The notes beneath the pieces are model-generated. The model was not told where the DNA came from. It worked only from the letters and a program-made list of their open reading frames with translations, and searched no databases. A DNA stretch of 64,000 bases from Owenia fusiformis (lineage: Eukaryota; Annelida; Polychaeta; Sabellida; Oweniidae), in assembly GCA_903813345.2 (NCBI GenBank), contig CAIIXF020000011.1, forward strand, positions 30,992,166-31,056,165. The letters run 5' to 3'. Made by a program: the position numbers and the translations under genes. Positions 133 to 59,900 of this stretch are shown here, piece by piece (position 1 is the stretch's first letter; the number at the start of each line of letters is the position of its first letter).

Positions 133-3100
133 CAACAAGGCCAGGAAAAGTTTGAAGACAAATGGCCGGCAATGCGCCCTACTGTCCTGCGACTTCTACG
201 TCAGGAGCCTGTCTCGAGAGAAGACTGGCAAAATCTCTTCTGGTAAGATTTTTTAAGAAGAAAACTACATACAGTGGTAATTTATAAGAAATAAAGTTCA
301 GTAAAACTTGTTTAGACTGCAGGGTTTGACTAAAATGTTTATATTGGGATTTTTATTTAAATAACCCCATACTTTTTGGGTTAACTTTCTTTCGAGTCTT
401 CATTTGTTTAAAAAATAGAGAATCTCCTTCAAAAACCTCTGTGATATCTTTGGCTTCTCCAAGAGATAAATAGTAACAAATTTCAATGTGTTTCTTTCAG
501 GACCGTCCATTCAGTGTGTCTGTGGAATGATAAAGGTCCGGCCAAAGTACATGAAGCATTGCAACATGATGTGTTGGACTTCATCAAACAAGCACAAGCT
601 GTGAGTGACGTTATCATGATCCTTCTACATAAAATTGTTGTATGCTCATGTTGTTATGGACATTAGCATTCATATGTCGCAAATATATTCACACACATTG
701 AGACACTTTACTCTAATGTGTTTCTGACTGGTCAACATTTGATGTTGAAGCATTTAATTATAAATATTTCCAGACTATTTATCTTTATACATTGAAACAC
801 TCCCAATTAATTTTTATTTAGACAACTCACTTGTTCGTTGTATGTGTCTTAGTCCCGGTAATGTTATTGTCTTATAGAGGGATGGGTACTACCCAAAACA
901 TTTGGCATTTATCATTTTTAAAATATATAGCTGCTAAAATATATGATATAAGATGTTGAAAAGTAAGATATAAGAGATTATATTAGATATATTTGTAAAT
1001 ATCATTGATACTAACAAGAAGCTACTGGTACCTATTATTTTCACAGTTCAGTCGAATAGTACATGTTTAAGAAGACACTGTAATTTGTAATGCAAAACCA
1101 ACCAGGGCTCTAATAAGTGCTACTGTGCTTTAAATGGTAATTCTGCATGAGGGAAATTACGAAACAAAACAAAATGTGTTAGAAATTATACTTAATAGTT
1201 GTCTGTTGCTATAGTAACATGTGTTGTATTAAATGTATAATTATTAAAATGTAAAATGAGTTAGAAGCAATTATTTTTCATTATTTAATAACATTACATG
1301 CCAGCTAAGGTAATTTGCTTTGTTCTTTGTTTCTATATCGTTTTGATTCATGAGTTTTTATAATGCCACACATGCAGTAAAGGGGCAACAAGGCCTGTAG
1401 AGAGAAAATTTTTACTTTTTCTGGGCTATCAGGGTGACATTTGGCTTATCGTCTTCTTTGACATACCTATTTTCTTAAAATATATGGATTAACTATCAAT
1501 TTCAGCATTAATAAGTATAAATTCAGTTCAAAGCTTCTATAAAGGGAGTCCCACTTATAGATTTTTAAGATCCATCACATAATGTTCATCCAAGGGGTTT
1601 CTTTGGAGAATAGTCTTAATGAAATATCCAAAATTAGATATTTTTTGGCACTGGTCCATGATCTGCACTAATTGTTGCACCTTTAATAATTTTACTTCAT
1701 TGATATCAATAGCAAAATTCTGAAATAAATCAGGAAATGCAATTCGATGAAAAATTAAGGCAATAACATTCAAGGCGTTTTTTAGTGTCCTTGTTTCAAT
1801 TGAAGTTACATATTGCAATTGCACTTCTTTCTGAAAAGTAATTTACAAGTTCATTGACTGTTTTTTCATTAATGTGTCTAGACAGTTATACAACATTATG
1901 CGCTGTTATTATATAAGAATAATCAGTACGAAAAGACAATGAAGAAATTAAATTTATTTACAGTAGTTGACAAATACGGTATCATCTTTTAGTGTTGGAA
2001 TTCACATTAATTTTGAGGTCTTTTTAATATAAAGCTTTTTTGTTTTCATATAGTAAATAATTATATGCCAATGTTATATTATATGAATATCAAAGGTATT
2101 TTAGGAGCATTTTGTGAATATTATATCATGAAGTCATGTCATGTATTGTTTTCCTTATAGAGAGGTGCTCCTATTACTGTATTATATTTTGTTTTGTTTT
2201 TGTAGCGAGTCTTACAACACCAAGAAGACACAGCCCTCCTGAAGGCTTACATAGCAGAATGGAGCAAGTTCTTCACGCAGTGCAATTATCTCCCAAAGCC
2301 ATTCTGCTATCTAGAGACCTCCCTCACAGGCAAGGCTCATAGTACCATGCAGAAAAACAGGCAAACAGAAGAAAGTATAGTCAGAAAGGTATATTGAGTT
2401 GAAATCACTAGGTTACATCACATTGATATCCCCGCCATAATGCATGCAGTTCCACACTCTGTTGAAAAGCTGAAAATTAAATGCCACCCCATTGAAAAGC
2501 TAAAAATTACATACCACCCCATTGAAAACCTGAAAATTATATCCCATCCTGTTGATAAACTGAAAATTACATTCCACCATGCTGGAAATCTATCTGCAAC
2601 AGTGGAAAGACAAGTACATCAGACAAGTAACATAAGGTTTTGTTTTAATGTTATAAGGTTTGGATTTCTCTTTATTAACAAAGTTTTGTGAAATCATGAA
2701 GTGATAATTTCAGTCGCTTATCACATTATTTCATTTCAAAAGATTACTAAATGTCTGTATGTGGCATGTTGCAAGGGCTTGAGCTTAAAGGGCCAGTCCA
2801 TTAAATGTCTGTATGTGGCATGTTGCCAGGGCTTGAGCTAAGGGCCAGTCCACTAAATGTCTGTATGTGGATATATGTTGCCAGGGCTTGAACTAAGGGC
2901 CAGTCCACTAAATGTCTGTTGGCATGTTACCAGGGCTTGAGTTAAGGGCTGGTCCACTGGCCATTTGCTAAGTCACTTTTGATACGGAACAGTTGATTTT
3001 TTCATTAGGCAACAATGCAACTGGTTCATAATGCCATTTTGACCAACTGCTCTCAGAACCTTAGCTCAACCACTGCATGTTGCCTAGAAATATTGTACTG

Positions 3101-6100
3101 CATCTAGTATAAAATGTAATGTTTGCACAATATGAAGTCTGGTGGCTGAAAATGACACACTATATGAGATGCATCATATTTCCATTGCAGTTAATGTTGG
3201 ACAGTTGGAACATGAACATATTCAACAACATCAAACAAAGGCTACAGGACAGTGCAATGAAGTTGGTACATGCGGAGCGTAATGGAGAGGCTTTTGATTC
3301 ACAGCTAGTTATAGGTGTCCGTGAGTCATATGGTAAGTAATAGAAAATGCTAAAGTAGGATATATCCCAGGTTTCTCTTTGAAGGATATATCCCAGGAAC
3401 CCCTTGGGAGAATATATCCCATGTACCCCTTGGGAGGATATATCCCAGGTACCCCTTGGGAGGATATATCCCAGGTACCCCTTGGGAGAATATATCCCAG
3501 GTACCCCTTTGGAGGATATATCCCAGGAACCCCTTGGGAGAATATATCCCATGTACCCCTTGGGAGGATATATCCCAGGTACCCCTTGGGAGAATATATC
3601 TCAGGTACCCCTTGTGAGCATATATCCCAGGTACCTCTTGAGAGGATATATTCCAGGTACCCCACTTACTGTTTGAGATTCCAGGAAGATGTCAACATAA
3701 TTTATAATTCAATTAAAAAGCAAAATAAAATCCATTTCACATAACATGTATTTGATTTAAAAAGCCTTTGATTATATCGACGTAATGTTTTACTCTATAA
3801 AAATAACATCAATATTCAACACAGGGATGAGGATTATGCAACGAAATACTATTTTAATAATTTCATTGACGACCTCTCTGTGTTGACATTATAGACGTGA
3901 AATATGGCAAACAAAGAAACAAATCAATCATTTTGAAATATGGAAATTTTCATTTATCTTTTCAGTCAACCTCTGCAGTAACCAAGAAGATCGGCTTAAA
4001 ATCTACAGAGATAACTTTGAGAAAGCATACCTTGAGGCTACAGATGCCTTCTACAAGGCCAAGGCCCCCCAGTACCTGGCGGACAATGGTGTGCAGAACT
4101 ATATGAAATATGCAGACCAGAAGCTTAAAGAGGAAGAACAAAGGGCTACTAGGTATCTAGAAACAAGGAAGGGGTGTAACTCAGTTATAGCAGTAAGTGG
4201 TTACTTTTATATGCTCCCTTAACCTCTGTTCAGTAAGATATTACAATGCAATATTTTTGAGATTTTTTTTTTAATTTTTGGGATTTTAATCCTAAATATT
4301 TACATTTACATTTTTTATCACAAATGTCTAGCTTGATATTGTCAGTCACCTCACTCGTTGAGACTTCAGCATTAAAACCTTACAAACTGTTGTTTAACCA
4401 TTGCTAAACTGATTATGATGAAACACATTTGTTTGTACTTGTTTCAGCTAACGGAGTGCTGTGTCCAATCGCTTGTAACTTCCTATAAAGACACAATACT
4501 AGCAGACTGCAGGGGAATGATTAAACAGAACGAAACTGCAAGTAAGTCGCAACTTACATATTTCTATTTTATTAATGAATAAATAGAATTTATATAAATT
4601 AAGTAATTTGTGTTGATCATTGAACAGACATCGTGTTAAGGAAATGTCTACTCATTTTTGCATGATCTTAACAAAAGTAATTTGTATACTTGATATAGAA
4701 TATTTTATATATTCTTAATTTGAACCAGTTCTCGTACTCATAATTGTCTAATTCATAAAATTAGCTTAAATTGCCAGTTTTAATTTGAAAAAAATATTAA
4801 ATCAATACTGAATAATAATCAATATAAACACATTAAAAAATCAGGTAAAAGTTGAATATGATCATTGTGTCACATGATCATGGATTAACACCTAACTATT
4901 TCCACGTGATTTCAATGTGACACTCTATATTTGCAGAGTTAGAGTTAATGTTCTCTCTGATGGACCGGGTACCTGATGGAATTAGCCCTATGCTGGAGTA
5001 CCTGGCCGACCATATAAAGGAGGATGGCTTGGCAGACATGCACGCTGCTGCTAGTATAATAACTACAGTGAGTTGAAATAGTAATTCTTTGAAATGAAGA
5101 GATAAAATTAAGACATTAATAGGAACTTTGTACAGTTAAGCAGCCCTCTAGAATCCATTGTTTTTACCGTGACATCATTATATCATTGGTTGTGTACAAT
5201 AGATTAGGAATTTTTGTTAACTAAGTATCTGTTAGTGACCGCCTTGAGATCATATTCATGGGTTTCACTTGAATTTCTGCCAACAGACAGATTGAATGAA
5301 AATAACAAAAAAATAGTTATGCAATTCCTCAAAACAACTTGCAATTTTGGTAAAAACAATTAGAGAAAATTATCAGCTGCCTAGTGCTAATAAAAGCACT
5401 GATTAGGTTTAAGGTATGCAATGTAAATAACATGGTGACCATTTTGCTCTTCAAAGTCTATATGTCTTGTTTCCTGGTTTTCTCGACGTTTACATATTGA
5501 TATTTTAGGCATTTCACACAAGCATGAAATCATTCGAGACTCACCACCACTTTTGTGTCTTAAAAATGGGATGTAATGGATTAAATCATCCATGACCAGT
5601 ACATGTACACAACCATTAACACAACCAACACTTAGCTTTATTTTGGGGGACCTTGAAGGCAATCCCCACTGGACTACAACATATACTTCTTATGATTTTA
5701 GGACTCAGAGAAATATGTAGAACAGCTACTAGAATTATTCAACAAGTTTAGTTTACTTGTAAAAGATGCTTTCCTTGATGATCCAAGATTCTTGACAGCT
5801 AGAGATAAGGTAAATCTAACAATAGGGAACTTTTGATTTTTTTAGATGTTATGAATTTCAGTGTGTAAAAAAACAGGTTAAAAATAAAACCATCATTTTC
5901 ATAATTTCAGGAAGGAAGTTAAACCATAGGAAAATTAACTTTTTCTTTAACAACTGTCTACTATTGGATTCAATCCCTATCCTCAGTAACCTGCTTATGT
6001 GGAACACTTTAAGTACCTCTAAAAGTGCTCCACTGCGAAGGTGTTCATTTAACAGAGGTTCATTTTACATCCTGGGATTCTGAAAGTGTTTCATTTACAG

Positions 6101-25914: not shown

Positions 25915-26285
25915 AGCAGAGGGGGAGAAACACCAGGGTTCAAAGATGACATACGCTTATAATGTAAATCTGTATTGAGATGACATTGTCGCTGATTGGT
26001 CAAAAGTCGACAAACAAATGACGTCATCGATGGCGGTTTCAAAATTTTCGAAATACGCTTCGAATAATATTATGTTCATTTCTGGCGTGTTAAGCAATAT
26101 CATAGCTTCTCATTTTACAACAAGATAAAGCAAGGTGTACGGAATATGCCTATGTCAATTAAAACATCCCATCGAAGTGTAGTATTTGATAACTAGCCGA
26201 TGAAAATTCGAACGAACGAAGGTGGTAAGCAAGAGAGGTAATTATGTCTGTCATCTTTAAACTCTGGGACTTTCCCTCCTCTTGT
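25915..26285. mobile_element. 370-bp MITE-like element, copy 1
   Basis: In inverse orientation this matches 59232-59600 along its length. Its ends (GAGGGGGAGAAACACCAGGG; TTAAACTCTGGGACTTTCCC) are imperfect terminal inverted repeats of about 30 bp. The interior has AATGACGTCATCGATGGCGG and no coding frame. Confidence 0.82.
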
Positions 26286-50900: not shown

Positions 50901-53900
50901 TCGAATCTTGAAAAAAATTTGAAAATTGAAAAAAATTCATAAATTGAATGTTCATAGATGGATGCAGGCCAATATCACTAAAGTGTATTCATTAAAACTT
51001 CACAAATGATGAAATACTCTGAAAGTAGCAAATCACAAAATAGATGGCGTAAAATGCATCCCATTTATCATATTAATTTATTGTCCCTATAATTGTTTTA
51101 TACCATGTAATTGTATCACCACACCTTCAACAGGTGTTAAGGTGATTAAAGACATATATCTGCTCCTAGTTGTTCATCACACATGTCTCCCGGAGATGTC
51201 GTCTGCAACATAAAGTGCATTATGGGAAAATTGAAAAATGACATTGAAAAATTAAGTGATTGATAGCTAAGTGACAGACTGATTGAAAAGCTGAAAAATA
51301 TTGAATAATGATAAGATAATACAAAATGTTTGTGTCCTATCATAATACAAATGAAGAATAATTGATGGATTTGATAAAGTGAACAGCTGATTATCACATA
51401 CTGGATATGAGTTCACTGTTTGTACCATGACTACCATGTAAAATATTCATGAAGAAGACCATGCTTTATTATGCAACTAATGAATTCTGTGACTTTCAAA
51501 ACCACACAAAGCACAGGAAATACATAAATGACATTTGAAACGAAAAGGTTAGAGTGGTACCTGTTTCGCTATTAGGAAATGATAATTCCATTGACTACAT
51601 TCAATCCTGGAGTGGTATATATTAACATTGGTACCTAAATCAAAACTCATATCATTCAATAGATGAGATCAGGAAGATATACACAAAATTTCAGCTGAAT
51701 TGAAGAATGTAAAGAAAGTTAGAGCCTTGTGCATTACTTCTGGGACTAAACCCTCTTAGGAATCATTTGTAAGGAAGACCAGAACATTTGGAGTATGTGC
51801 AAAAAAACTGAAAAAGTGACAAAAATGTATACTTAAATGTGTGTTCAATAGTCCATCTTTTGAGTATAATATACAGCTCGCTTCCCAAGAATCTCAAGTT
51901 CAATACAAAATATACTCAATACACTGTAATAGTATGGGAGCAAAGGTCATTCCGTGTCCTTTTTAGAGGCGAGCTAAGCGACATATATTTTCATGAACTA
52001 TACTTGATACTTACCAAGAAAAATGATGTTGGCAATTCTGAATCCGCGACGGCGTTGCTATGGTAACCAAGTAAATATGCCACGCCCACTTTTAGGGTCT
52101 CTTTTCAGTGTATGGTCCCTATCTCTGTCATTATTGCTCAGATGTAGATGAAATTCACACCAAATGAAAGGTAATGGATAATGCAATCAGGAAATATTAA
52201 GTTGGCATTTCTGAATCCGATATTGCGTTGCTATGGTAACAAAGTAAATATGCCACGCCCACTTTTCGGAGCTACTTTCAGTGTTTGGCCCCTAACTTTG
52301 TCATTATTGCACAGATTTAGATGAAATTTGCACCAAATTAAAGGTAATAGATAGGGCAATCAAACAATGTTTAAAACATGCAAAGATGGTGATTTGCATT
52401 TTAACTATGACGTCATAACTGTTTGTTCTTGGATATTTTATTTTAATCATAATGTATAAATCTGGGAAATCATTGTCTTTAAAATGGTCAGTATAATGCT
52501 TTTAACTAGTTTAGTTTATTTCTTTCATTTGAGATTATTAGTTTAATTCATTTATACATGTATGATCATAAAAATTGAATAAATATAATGAAAGTGTCCA
52601 ATTCACACTGTTGCTTTGGTGACAGCATGTAACAAAACTATCTGCTATAAACAAGAATTCTTTAGGAAATGTTACATTTTGACCAGTTGAGTGACATGTA
52701 TTCTTTTTAAAATTTGGTGACAGAAAATAATCTAACAACCATAATTATTAAATTTGGATTGTGTTATATTATGATGTCATAATGGCAATTTTGAATCAGG
52801 GGCGCAGCCAGCTTTCAGTCAGAAGGGGGCCTGCGATCGTGGCGGAGGCAACCCAAAAGTATTTATAAGATAGGTTTTGAATATTACAAAAATTGATGCA
52901 ACTTCCTTCAAAATTTAGCAAAAGGCTTCAAATTAAAAGTCTTCTTTTATCCAATGGTTCTATCTTTATTGGTTATTAGGGGGTGGGTGAACCCAGCGCA
53001 CCCCCATCCCCCTAAGCACTACCTCTGTTAATCCAATATGATGTTGCTATGGTAACCATTAGGTGAATATGCTAGGTGAATCAGACAATACATGAATAAT
53101 GTAGATTGGCTGACTGACATACTAAGTACCTGTTATGGTATCATAGCTGCTTTTTGTGATTATTTTCTTGAAATAAGGTAAAATTGCTCAAAATGGTTCC
53201 AAATTGGAACCTTGTCCTTTGACTTTCACCATAAAATGAGGCCAAAGCTGAAAACTATAATTGATTCCATTTCTTTACAAGTACGAGGGGCGTTTGAAAA
53301 GTTCGTTTCTTTTTGCTCTAATTTTTTTATGAAACTTTCAGCATATGTGCCATATACATATATCTTGAGTTTACATCAATATTGATACAATTCCTCATAA
53401 GGAAGTGAACTTTTGGTTGCCGTGGCAACAGCGAGACTTGGTTCCGTGGAGCACCTTACAAATTCAATGAATGAAACAATGCATTCAATGAAAAAAACTT
53501 AATACGTTTTTTTGAAAATAACAGTTATTTGTTTAAAATGTGTTGCCATAGCAAAAAGTTAGTGGTATAATAGTGTTCTACAGGTGAATGGACTCACTGT
53601 GCTGTCAGTGTGATGTCATAATCCTCCGTCAAAACAGTCTCACTCTATTCACTAAAATTTGGTGGAGCAGGTGTTTCCAAACAGTGGAGCGAAATGGTGA
53701 ATGAACTTATCAAAGAGCAGATACCTTGCATTAAAATCTGTGTAAAACAAGGAAAAGACTGTAAGAACGTGAACAGCAACATATGAAGACACCTGTTGTT
53801 CCTTTCCCATGATAAGAAGCTGGTTCAACAAGTTCAAGAAAGGCATCTCAACCAGCGAGGATGGGCCAAGAAGCAGGTGAAAAAGGACAGCGATATTAAA

Positions 53901-56900
53901 ATAAAATATTGACTTAGTGAAGACAATAATTGAACAGGAAAATGCCTATATGGATTGGATACGGAGGTTTCGAAAGTGCATTCTATTGGGGGAGAATACT
54001 TCGAAGGAGATATAGAGCCCTGGCTTAGGCAAACTGGCTTAATGTTGTGGCAATGATAAGATAGGTCCATGGACTGCACATTATGGTTGGATACATTGAT
54101 TGTGACGTAAAAGTATCCACATTCAAACTGCTCCGCGGTATCGAAACAAGTATATTTCAAACGGATGTAAAACTGTGGCTATAATATGTTGCACTCTATA
54201 ATTTTCACAGCTTAATAATAAATATTCAAACTACACATCCTAGAAGTTTTGTCTTGTTCTGAACATTCCTCGTATTTTTAGAGCAAAAAGAAAGGAACTT
54301 TTCAAATGCCCCTCGTATGAAGTATGGAAGCCCTTGATTTCAGATATGCTTTTGGTTTTGAAATCCGACATCCGACCATTCGGTTCAAAATTGATACAGT
54401 TGTGTCTACATGACCTAAAAAGATGAAATAGGCTAAAGTATTGACCAATACCATGAAATGATATTATTTTTATTATGTAAATTGACATTGAACATATTTT
54501 TCGGATTTCAAAACCATTAGCAGCTATTAATGCGACAATGGGTATGCCAGTCAGTCAATCGACATAATCCATGCATTGTCTGAATCTTTAGCTTCAATTT
54601 GGTGAATATTTCTCAAGCTGTAATCATGACAAAGATAGAAGCAAAACTTTGGAAAAGCCCCGAACAGTTGGAATGGCATATTCACCTAGTTACCATAGGA
54701 ACATCATATTGGATTAACATATAGGCATTGCCAGGGGTGCGATGCGCCCCCATAAACAAAAAAATAGAATCATTAAATAGAAGAAGAGCTTTAAAATCAT
54801 TTTGACTTGAAGCTTCTAGCTCAATTTTGAAGGGAGTTGCATCAATTTTTGTAAAATTCAAAACAAATCTTAAAAACATTTTTGCGTTGCTTGTGCTACG
54901 ATCGCAACCGCCCCCCCCTCTCCTGACTGAACGCTGGCTGCACCCCTGATTAATAATTGCCATTATGGCATCATAATATAACATAATTTAAATCAAATAG
55001 TTTTCTATAGTTATAAGATTATTTTCTGTCATCATATTTTAAAAAGAATACATGTGTCAGTCAACTAGTCAAAATGTAAAATTTCCTAAAGAATTCTTTT
55101 TACATCAGATAGTTTTGCTATGTGCTGTAACCATAGCAACAGCATAAACTGGAGATTACATATTTAGATTTATTCAGTTTTTATGACCATACAAGTTTGA
55201 ATGAAATACAATTATAAACTCAACTAAAAGAAATAAACTAATTAACTAGTTAAAAGCATTACTGACTATTTTAAAGACAATAATTTCACAGATTAATATA
55301 TCAAAATTAAGATAAAATATGCAAGAACAAACAGTTATGACGTTATAATCAATTTGCAAATCATCCTATTTGCATAGTTTACTGACTGTATGATTGCTCT
55401 ATCTATTACCTTTAATTTAGTGCAAATTTCATCTAAATCTGAGCAATAATGAAGAAGATAAGGGCGAAACATTGAAAAGAGCCCCTTAAAGTGGATGGGG
55501 CATATTCACTTTGTTACCATAGCAACGCCATCCTTGGGAATTCCTCGATGTCATTTCAATTGTTCCTTCGTGCCAAATCGCGTAGTAATCTATAGTGATC
55601 AATCCACTGATTTTTGACGCAAAATTCATCCCGAGTCAATCACTTGTTTTAAACTTAATGTAACTTTTTCATTTTTTACCAGAGATATATGAAAAATATA
55701 TGAGAAGAAAGTTACAACAAAATAAAAATGTCTGTTGACAATTTTGAGGACCTGCCTGGAACACATGTTGCGGACTATATTCTCTTAGTGTGGATGTTCA
55801 AAAGTACAAGTTGAAGCACCGCAACAATGGGTGGAATTCCTGATTGCATTTTCTATTACCTTCAATTTGGTCAGAATTTCATCAAAATCTGAGCAATAAT
55901 GGTGGAGATGGGGGCCAAACACTGAAAAGAGCCCCTAAAAATGGGCATGGCATATTTACTTGGTTACCATAGCAACAGCATCGCAGATTCAGAATTGCCC
56001 ATAATACTTATTGATCATACTTTATACATGTAAAGAAATAGAATGAAAATCAATCATAGTTTTCAGCTTTGACCTACTTTTAATGTGAATGTCAAAGGAC
56101 AAGGTACCATTTTGGAATCATCTTGAGCAATTTTACCTTATTTCAAGAAAATAATCACGATAACAGCTATGATAGTAGAGTAGTATAGTCTAGATATAGT
56201 ATAGATATAGTATAGATAGTATAGATAGTATAGTATAGTCATACCATAACATGTATGCCAGTCTGTCAATCTACATTCCCAATGCATTGTCTGATTCTTT
56301 AGTTTCCATTTGATGAAAATTTCATATACACCAGAGCTATCATCATGACAACTGATAGAATCAAAACTTTGGAAAAGACCTGAAATTTGGGACGGCATAT
56401 TCACCTGAATACCATAGCTAACATAGGCATAGCCAGGGGGTGTGATGGGGTCACCCCAGCCCCCCCCCCCCCCCCCATGAACCAATCAAAATAGAACCAT
56501 TACAGAGAAGAAGATTTAAAATGCTTTTGACTTGAAGCTTCTAGCTCAATTTTGAAGGAATCTTTGTAAGATTTAGGACACATTAAACATTTTTTGAGTT
56601 GCTTATGCCGAGATCACCCCCCCCCCCCCCCCTGATTGAAAGCTGGCTGCGCCCCTGATTAATAATTGCCATTATGACATCATAATATAACACAATTTAA
56701 AATTAGATAAGTTTCTATCGTTATAAGGTTATTCTCTGCCATCAAATTTTAGAAGGAATACATGTCAGTCAACTGGTCAAAATGTAACATTTCCCAAATA
56801 TTGTTTTTGCAGCAGATAGTTTTGCATCATACTGTTACCATAGCAACAACTTGAATTGGATATAGTCATTACGTTCTTTCAAATTTTTATGACCATACAT

Positions 56901-59900
56901 GTATGAATGAAATAAACTAATAAGCTAAATGAAAATAAATAAACTAATTAACTACTTAAAAGCATTTAAAATACAATAATTTCCCAGATTTATACATCAT
57001 GATTAAAATAAAATGTGCAAGAACAAATGGTTATGACGTCATAATTGATATGCAAATCACCTTATTTGCATATTTCTTAAATTGTGTGATTGCTCTTTCC
57101 ATTACCTTTCATTTGGTACAAATCTCACCTAAATCTGAGCAATATTGACGAATATAGGGACCAAACACTGAAAAGAGCCCCTAAAAGTGGGTATGGGATA
57201 TTCACTTTGTTACCATAGCAACGCCATATCGGATTTAGAATTGCCCACTTAATATTTCCTGATTGCATTATCCATTACCTTCCATTTGGTGTGAATTTCA
57301 TCTAAATCTGAGCAATAATGACAGAGATAGGTGCCATACACTGAAAAGAGCCCCTAAAAGTGGGCGTGGCATATTTACTTGGTTACCATAGCAACGCCGT
57401 CGCGGATTCAGAATTGCCAACATCATTTTTCTTGATCAGTATCACGTATAGTTCATAAAAACATATGTCGCTTAGCTCGCCTCTAAAAAGGACACGGAAC
57501 CTCATATTTGGACTTTTGCTCCCACACTATAAATGATTAAGAAAATATTTGAGAAAGTGACTGTCTATACGTTTATATGACTCGATGGAGGGAGGATTCT
57601 TCATTGTGTTGTTATGGATAACTATAAATATAGGACAAGGTTGAGACATTTTCTTTAATACTCGTACAGGGTCAACAAATTTTTAGTGCATAATTTAGTT
57701 CACAACTTCAGATGTTTTAAGAAGTATTGAAGAAATTTCCTTGTAAAGTTTGCAATGTTCATTAATTAAGAATAATTATGAATAATTACTCCCAGACCTT
57801 TAAAATGCTAAATAATGGCTAATTAATTTATCTTATATTTAATTAAATATCCACCATACATTATATTTCTTATATTTGACTTCATGTTGTCAGTTACAGC
57901 ACCAAATGGGTCATTTATTCTTATATAACTACAATTTTAATTCAATATTAAAATTTATTCGTTAAACTTTGGTAGGTTCAATCATTTACAATGGCATCCC
58001 AGCTATCTAATATTTTATATTTTCGATAAGGTTATATATAAGATGAAAATATTAAGTTGAGTACACACTAATACTACTAATACAGTATAAATGAACCATT
58101 TTTCATTAACGACCTTTTGCAAACTACTAACTTTTTCACTAATGTTTTGATAAATACAATACTTTTTCCGAACTACTAACTTTCTTATTGACTACTAACT
58201 TCTACATTAACTTTTATCTTTGGTTTGTGTCCTGATCATTTCAAAGTTAGAAGTTCATTTACTTTTCTCTCAGAGTCAAGATGTTGCATACTCCATGTTA
58301 ATAATAACTTGCCCTTTCATAAAATGCTAAACGCTTTAATTATTTTTAAATGTAACTTTAAATTATTACAAATCTATCTTTAGTGTTAGTCTCTTTTCAG
58401 TAATTTATAGGAATTTACTATTTAATTTAATTCATTAAAGTATTTATCAAAACATATATTCCTAAATAGATATTGATAAATGTGAAATGTAATGAGAATT
58501 TTAATTTTATGACCCATCTGTCAACTTTACCCTCCTATATAAAATATACACTGTAAATTGAAATTGAGAAAATGAAGATGTACATATACATTCACTTATA
58601 TGTCTTATATGATAGCTACATTATTAGATAACCATCTACATATTGACATTAAAAAAAATAATCGAATTTGGTGGATTAAATTGGATCAGTTACTTTGGAG
58701 ATACTGGATCTGGTGGAATATTTGATGATTTTCAAATTTATAAATATAAAGTATATAGAGTCATACAAATGAAAGGTTTTAGTCAATCTTCCTGATAAGT
58801 GATGTTCTAAAATGAGAGAAAATGGTTAAAGTAAGTCAAAAATAGAAGTGTTGATATTTTGAGTAAAACATGAAGTTGTGTTCTATCAAATACCTTATTG
58901 TACTACCAATAGCCATAGGAGCCCAGAAACCAAACAACATTTTTATAACAGACTTAAGCGAAGACCAGATAGGTTTAGAATGGAACTTGGAAAATAACAC
59001 ATCAACTGAAGTTGAATTTAAAATCCTATATTGGCCCAAGGATAACCCAGATGCATTGAAAATAGAAAACACAGAGGATTTTAATGTTACGTTGAAGAAT
59101 TTGACTGCGGGAGAGTTATATACTGTGTGGATAGTAACAGTAGCAGATAATACAAGTGAATACTCAAGCATTGAGCAGCATACAGGTGGGTTTATATGGG
59201 GTCATACAAGTGAACACTCAGGCATAGGTGGGTGAAGGGGGGGAAAGCCCCAGAGCTTTAGCGATGACTGACATAATACGTCTCTTGCGTACCACCTTCG
59301 TTTGCGCAAATTCTCACCAGTTAATTTTCGAACATATCGTGTCGTCATTATGTTTTAATCAATGTAAACATATTCCTTACATATTTCTTTATCTTGATGT
59401 GAAAAACAAAGCTATGATATTGGTTAATTCGCCAGGAATCAACATAATATTATTCGAAGCGTTATTAGAAAATTTTGAATCCGCCATTTTTGTTTATCGA
59501 TTTGGACCAATCTGAGGTGTATGTCATCTCAATACAGGTTTACATTATAAGCGTATGGCATCTTTGAACTCTGGTGTTAATCCCCCTCTTAGGGGGGTGT
59601 ATATGGGGTCATGCAAGAGAATACTCAAGCATAGACCAGCATATAGGTGGCTGTATACAGCGTCATACAAGTTAACACTCGGGCATTTATATTGCTAACC
59701 GATATGGTTGAGAAACATTTTATTAGGGTAATGATTTGGCATAAAGCTCTATGAAAAACAGAAGAGGAAGAGATATTGGCTGACAATAGTTCAGAGTTGA
59801 AAAACACTTGAAAGCACCAAGCAAAATGATAGATATTTATCGGGAGGATGCATTGCAAATTGCATCACTTTTAACCCCATTTTAATGTAAGTACCATATT

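Follow-up and report, generated by a model that had tools for sequence, protein, structure and literature searches.

A multi-copy foldback element family with an uncommon three-armed form in Owenia fusiformis

When analysing a 64,000-nucleotide stretch of Owenia fusiformis DNA (G000:C11:30992166-31056165, here called the window) a 5,600-bp composite of three related units was found, which in all likelihood belongs to a foldback family of DNA transposons that is non-autonomous. The family is real and present in many copies, with an uncommon three-armed form, and gave no evidence of a new mechanism. Non-autonomous foldback transposons are already known as a kind, and the family shows the features of that class: long inverted arms with defined termini, subterminal tandem repeats and a target duplication of constant length. 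What sets the family apart is its fixed three-arm layout, together with a duplication of 3 bp and a third arm without a terminus.

Comparison of copies lying on unrelated flanks revealed that the window copy has sharp edges at 51930 and 57529. A preliminary description of the locus had placed it at 51931-57531; its boundaries have to be shifted to the positions given here, with TAA lying outside. The element begins with TAGTATGGGAGCAAA and ends with TTTGCTCCCACACTA, and TAA frames it on both sides. Self-comparison of 51000-58500 bore out the inverse-complement outer arms described earlier; 51950-52486 and 56963-57499 are 90% complementary over 537 nt without gaps, the homology continues in further blocks up to 53266/56048, and the outer arms overall measure ~1.1-1.5 kb with ~86% complementarity. 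The third, partial copy that had been proposed between the arms was also recovered (unit 2). This middle unit has the orientation of the right arm; both are inverted with respect to the left one. The features are collected in Table 1.

Table 1. Features of the window element and its target site (positions within the window).
Feature	Position	Strand	Remarks
Left target site duplication TAA	51927-51929	.	Repeated at 57530-57532
Whole three-armed foldback, mariner-bearing group of subfamily A	51930-57529	+	5,600 bp; copy comparison
Left terminus TAGTATGGGAGCAAA	51930-51944	+	Genome-wide terminus comparison
Unit 1, left arm, as far as the mariner	51930-53283	+	Self-comparison and copy alignment
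Unit 1 subrepeats, 2 x 173 bp in tandem, each with a GTTGCTATGGTAAC-like palindrome	52015-52360	+	
MITE-like block, unit 1	52797-53034	.	Counterparts at ~54718-54953 and 56424-56661
Nested mariner-like element, broken, 1,032 bp	53284-54315	.	TA duplication at 53282-53283 and 54316-54317
Unit 2, middle arm	54540-55999	-	Partial, without terminus; 54320-55999 in the self-comparison
Segment of ~300 bp in unit 2, flanked by its two 173-bp repeats	55535-55836	.	
Unit 3, right arm, full	56000-57529	-	Self-comparison and copy alignment
Unit 3 subrepeats, 2 x 173 bp in tandem	57083-57418	-	Self-comparison
Right terminus, inward reading TAGTGTGGGAGCAAA	57515-57529	-	Genome-wide terminus comparison
Right target site duplication TAA	57530-57532	.	

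Using the left arm, the right arm and the middle unit as queries against the genome (498 Mb, 12 large contigs), ~40 copies of this type (subfamily A) were found dispersed over all twelve large contigs, typically 4.25-4.56 kb long and 92-98% identical over aligned segments to a 4,517-bp consensus, which was built from 20 mariner-free copies. In the consensus, unit 1 occupies positions 1-~1640 while units 2 (~1840-3050) and 3 (3051-4517) are inverted, and two tandem 173-bp subrepeats with a GTTGCTATGGTAAC-like palindrome lie near the outer side of each unit, giving six in total. The same order of left arm, inverted middle arm and inverted right arm is kept across the copies aligned. Set beside the usual foldback layout of two arms and a middle, the outer pair is present and subfamily A, in the copies aligned, adds an inner third arm; a second group, subfamily B, is two-armed. 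The end pairs included no two-arm copy of subfamily A, and only a mini-element of 233 bp was exceptional in size.

The termini of the family read TAGTRTGGGAGCAAA (pattern form TAGTRTGGGAGC), i.e. are of the type TAGTR...YACTA. Exact matches to the left terminus TAGTATGGGAGCAAAGGTC number 40 in the genome, and the terminal pattern, allowing two mismatches at most, gave 182 matches against one for the reversed control pattern. When the right termini were sorted by inspection (n = 79), 38 had GTG (subfamily A), 39 CTG (subfamily B) and two ATG. Both ends could be read in 22 elements, 19 of which are framed by exact 3-bp target duplications on unrelated flanks, two (L023 and L029) by 4-bp duplications and one (L024) by none. 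Mismatched pairing of flanks gives a 3-bp duplication by chance in 4.5% of copies (P = 4e-23). No single word is duplicated, although A and T predominate (TAA, CAA, ATA, AAA, TTA, TAT, TTG, ATT, TAG, CAC, CAT and TCA). Unit 2 lacks the outermost 65-85 bp, so that the middle arm has no terminus; among the same 22 elements none had a terminus in the middle arm, 18 had it only at both ends, and the remaining four had one loose match each, 309 bp from the right end and outside the middle arm.

Some terminus matches were of other kinds. Two exact 15-base matches outside the family (L050 and L056), where seven further bases agree, lie in sequence where no second end was found and were judged to be due to chance, and L049 is an end fragment of 73 bp. 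At G000:C9:33454941-33456791 three left termini in the same direction, 916 bp apart, form a tandem left-arm array adjoining one element. The left ends at C1:33019950 and C1:34425538 (L066 and L069), 1.4 Mb apart, share identical mutations and flank, as in a segmental duplication.

These data bear on two explanations that do without transposition of the element by its own ends. The first is a local segmental inversion-duplication that is not mobile; arms diverged by 10-16% and a partial unit could be the traces of an old local event, but it is refuted by the ~40 copies spread over every large contig, whose edges agree, whose flanks are unrelated and which have 3-bp duplications, and its probability is next to nothing. 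The choice between foldback and local rearrangement had been tied beforehand to the number of copies, their ends and the constancy of the duplication, and on all three the result favours the foldback. The second, that segmental duplications or another repeat carried the copies along, their own ends not being used, is very improbable. It would agree with the fact that no transposase was found (see below), and the shared flank of C1:33.02M and C1:34.43M together with the array at C9:33.45-33.46M indicates that duplication also occurs; however, homology breaks off at an identical base in one copy after another, each with its own 3-bp duplication.

To address the history of the three units, distances were compared within and between elements. 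Units 1 and 2 differ by 0.162 both within and between elements, units 1 and 3 by 0.138 within and 0.137 between, and units 2 and 3 by 0.157 and 0.158, respectively. Copies of one unit differ by ~0.06 between elements while the units inside an element are 14-16% apart, and in a tree of the aligned copies units 1, 2 and 3 are each monophyletic. Since within- and between-element distances are equal and the units monophyletic, the three-unit composite was built once and then multiplied, and the arms have not detectably converted one another since the composite spread. In a midpoint-rooted tree that includes the arms of subfamily B, units 1 and 3 pair, the left and right arms of B pair and unit 2 stands apart. 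The third arm thus did not arise by recent duplication of an outer one; an older origin, or acquisition, is possible.

The nested elements allow further steps to be ordered. As the preliminary description had noted, the MITE-like block lies at one place in all three units and is thus older than their multiplication. Nearly all of its scored genome matches fall inside copies of the foldback family, which leaves the existence of a separate MITE family unproven. The mariner had been described as present in one unit only, which holds for its single place in the window element, but four elements in the genome carry it at that same site (the window copy on C11, C10:18.86M, C1:17.46M and C1:36.84M). 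Seven other copies checked have an empty site with a single TA, and the mariner-bearing copies with aligned arms form a clade in every unit. The four have differing flanks, three of them with the duplications TAA, CAA and TTA and the fourth (L010) with worn ends. As the mariner sits at the same site in four dispersed elements, the composite must have transposed as a whole once the mariner was in it. The order proposed earlier, a unit with its MITE, multiplication of the unit and then the mariner, is therefore kept, with the refinement that the mariner predates the latest transpositions. The ~300-bp insertion in unit 2 (query 1212-1519) was matched only in mariner-bearing copies among those scored, the others skipping it.

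Subfamily B comprises ~35-40 copies, mostly 3.3-6.4 kb long. Its two arms are ~85% like those of subfamily A and enclose a core of minisatellite repeats (GGGGCCACTGGGATGCTTTT-like); the target duplications include GAC, TAA, TAT and TTT. Two mini-elements of 233 and 267 bp retain the ends alone, the former with the 3-bp duplication ATA. Two window segments outside the element, 25918-26000 and 59521-59590, match at 91-98% a short repeat that is also found in the subfamily B loci L072 and L076.

The longer end pairs were considered as candidates for autonomous copies. L073 and L074 (subfamily B, 9.3-10 kb, 98% alike) have a 6.4-kb insert in common, in which no recognisable coding sequence was found in the part of the L073 frames scanned, and they were rejected. 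The insert has short inverted ends (TCTAGAWGAAA-like), a TTTT duplication and a tRNA-like or SINE-like stretch. L080 and L084 contain reverse-transcriptase-like open frames, as judged by eye, while L076-L079 and L081-L083 contain other repeats or low-complexity DNA; none of these was retained. L085 covers the same locus as L077. The latter (positions 1-1328) belongs to subfamily B and carries an additional segment, which contains an open frame of 152 aa. This frame looks MADF-like to the eye, gave no Pfam match and possibly derives from a captured gene.

That no coding gene lies inside the window element, as stated in the preliminary description, agrees with its longest stop-to-stop frame of 115 aa and with the lack of Pfam matches in most of its frames of at least 60 aa, scanned as joined open-frame pieces. 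Nor did a Pfam scan over part of the open frames reveal a transposase-encoding copy with foldback ends among the copies examined, and for this reason we infer that the family is moved in trans.

Several superfamilies were compared as possible sources of such a transposase. In the Mutator superfamily, which includes MULE foldbacks, the duplication is ~9 bp and in the P superfamily (Galileo) 7-8 bp, and both were rejected on the 3 bp found here. PIF/Harbinger elements make 3-bp duplications limited to TWA; TAA or TTA accounts for only five of the 19 here, the others being CAA, AAA, TTG, CAC, CAT, TCA, TAG, ATA etc., and this superfamily was likewise rejected. CACTA/EnSpm elements have 3-bp duplications and the termini CACTA...TAGTG. 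The genome contains 14 Transposase_21 matches, nine of them with an identical-scoring open frame of 608 aa, and two of the nine loci (L090 and L091; G000:C1:24242559 and C9:20344596) show no difference over 4.5 kb of DNA, which suggests from sequence that this CACTA-type element was active very recently. Membership of the foldback family in the CACTA/EnSpm group, with this transposase as its helper, would fit the shared duplication length and the presence of the enzyme, but is unlikely given that the foldback termini are TAGTR...YACTA and that the 608-aa loci, over the 4.5 kb read, which stops short of the element ends, do not resemble the foldback arms significantly.

Academ elements have duplications of 3-4 bp. 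Zator elements have 3-bp target duplications (PMC10045372). A helper from one of these superfamilies or from an undescribed one agrees with mostly 3-bp and a few 4-bp duplications without a fixed target word, and is given somewhat less than an even chance; on the other side, the Zator domain PF07592 (ISAzo13-like transposase) had no match in the genome, although the control genomes were equally silent.

Whichever the helper, a foldback family moved in trans would work as follows. The termini TAGTRTGGGAGCAAA, perhaps together with the tandem 173-bp subterminal repeats, would be bound by a DDE-type transposase encoded at another locus, and the element would be cut out and pasted into a staggered cut, giving the 3-bp duplication. 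The middle arm is an internal passenger which, its outer 65-85 bp being missing, offers no competing end, and the three-armed form may be able to amplify for that reason. A stronger version, in which an undescribed transposase group with 3-bp duplications acts and mobility profits from the third arm, for instance through extra subterminal binding sites without a competing end, so that the three-arm layout would be selected and not merely tolerated, is improbable.

Among known foldbacks, FB of Drosophila and TU of sea urchin have long inverted arms built of subrepeats and are non-coding or carry captured DNA; by description, longer target duplications and two arms set them apart from the Owenia family. 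The closest described architecture is that of Tetris in Drosophila virilis (PMC4079207), also a non-coding foldback with a variable middle, with arms of up to ~1.7 kb and tandem arm subrepeats (~220 bp compared to 173 bp here); in both, a mini-element shares only the ends and no autonomous partner was found. Tetris, which is placed with Mutator, differs in its 8-10 bp duplications and in having two arms and three structurally complete copies (PMC4079207), compared to 3 bp, three arms and ~40 copies in Owenia. For the extra arm the closest precedent is the multiple-TIR Mutator-like elements of plants (PMC3310237), which are also non-autonomous, with an arm tandem to or inside the outer pair and target duplications of their own. 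Plant elements with just one additional TIR scarcely multiplied (PMC3310237), whereas the Owenia three-arm form is fixed in ~40 copies, and unlike in the plant elements its extra arm has no terminus, a difference which may explain the unequal amplification. Galileo of Drosophila, in the P superfamily, has a known transposase in some copies (PMC3573991, PMC3688188), in contrast to the Owenia family, in which no coding copy was found among those read.

The shared nested insertions, the mariner in four elements and the 6.4-kb insert in two, provide clean relative dating within the family. Foldback elements are mostly placed in Mutator and have long target duplications. Finding the same architecture with a 3-bp duplication is what independent origins of foldbacks in several superfamilies would lead one to expect. 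The family also shows that an extra arm does not keep a composite from reaching ~40 copies, in contrast to plant Mutator-like elements with three TIRs, and the suggested reason is that the extra arm has lost its terminus.
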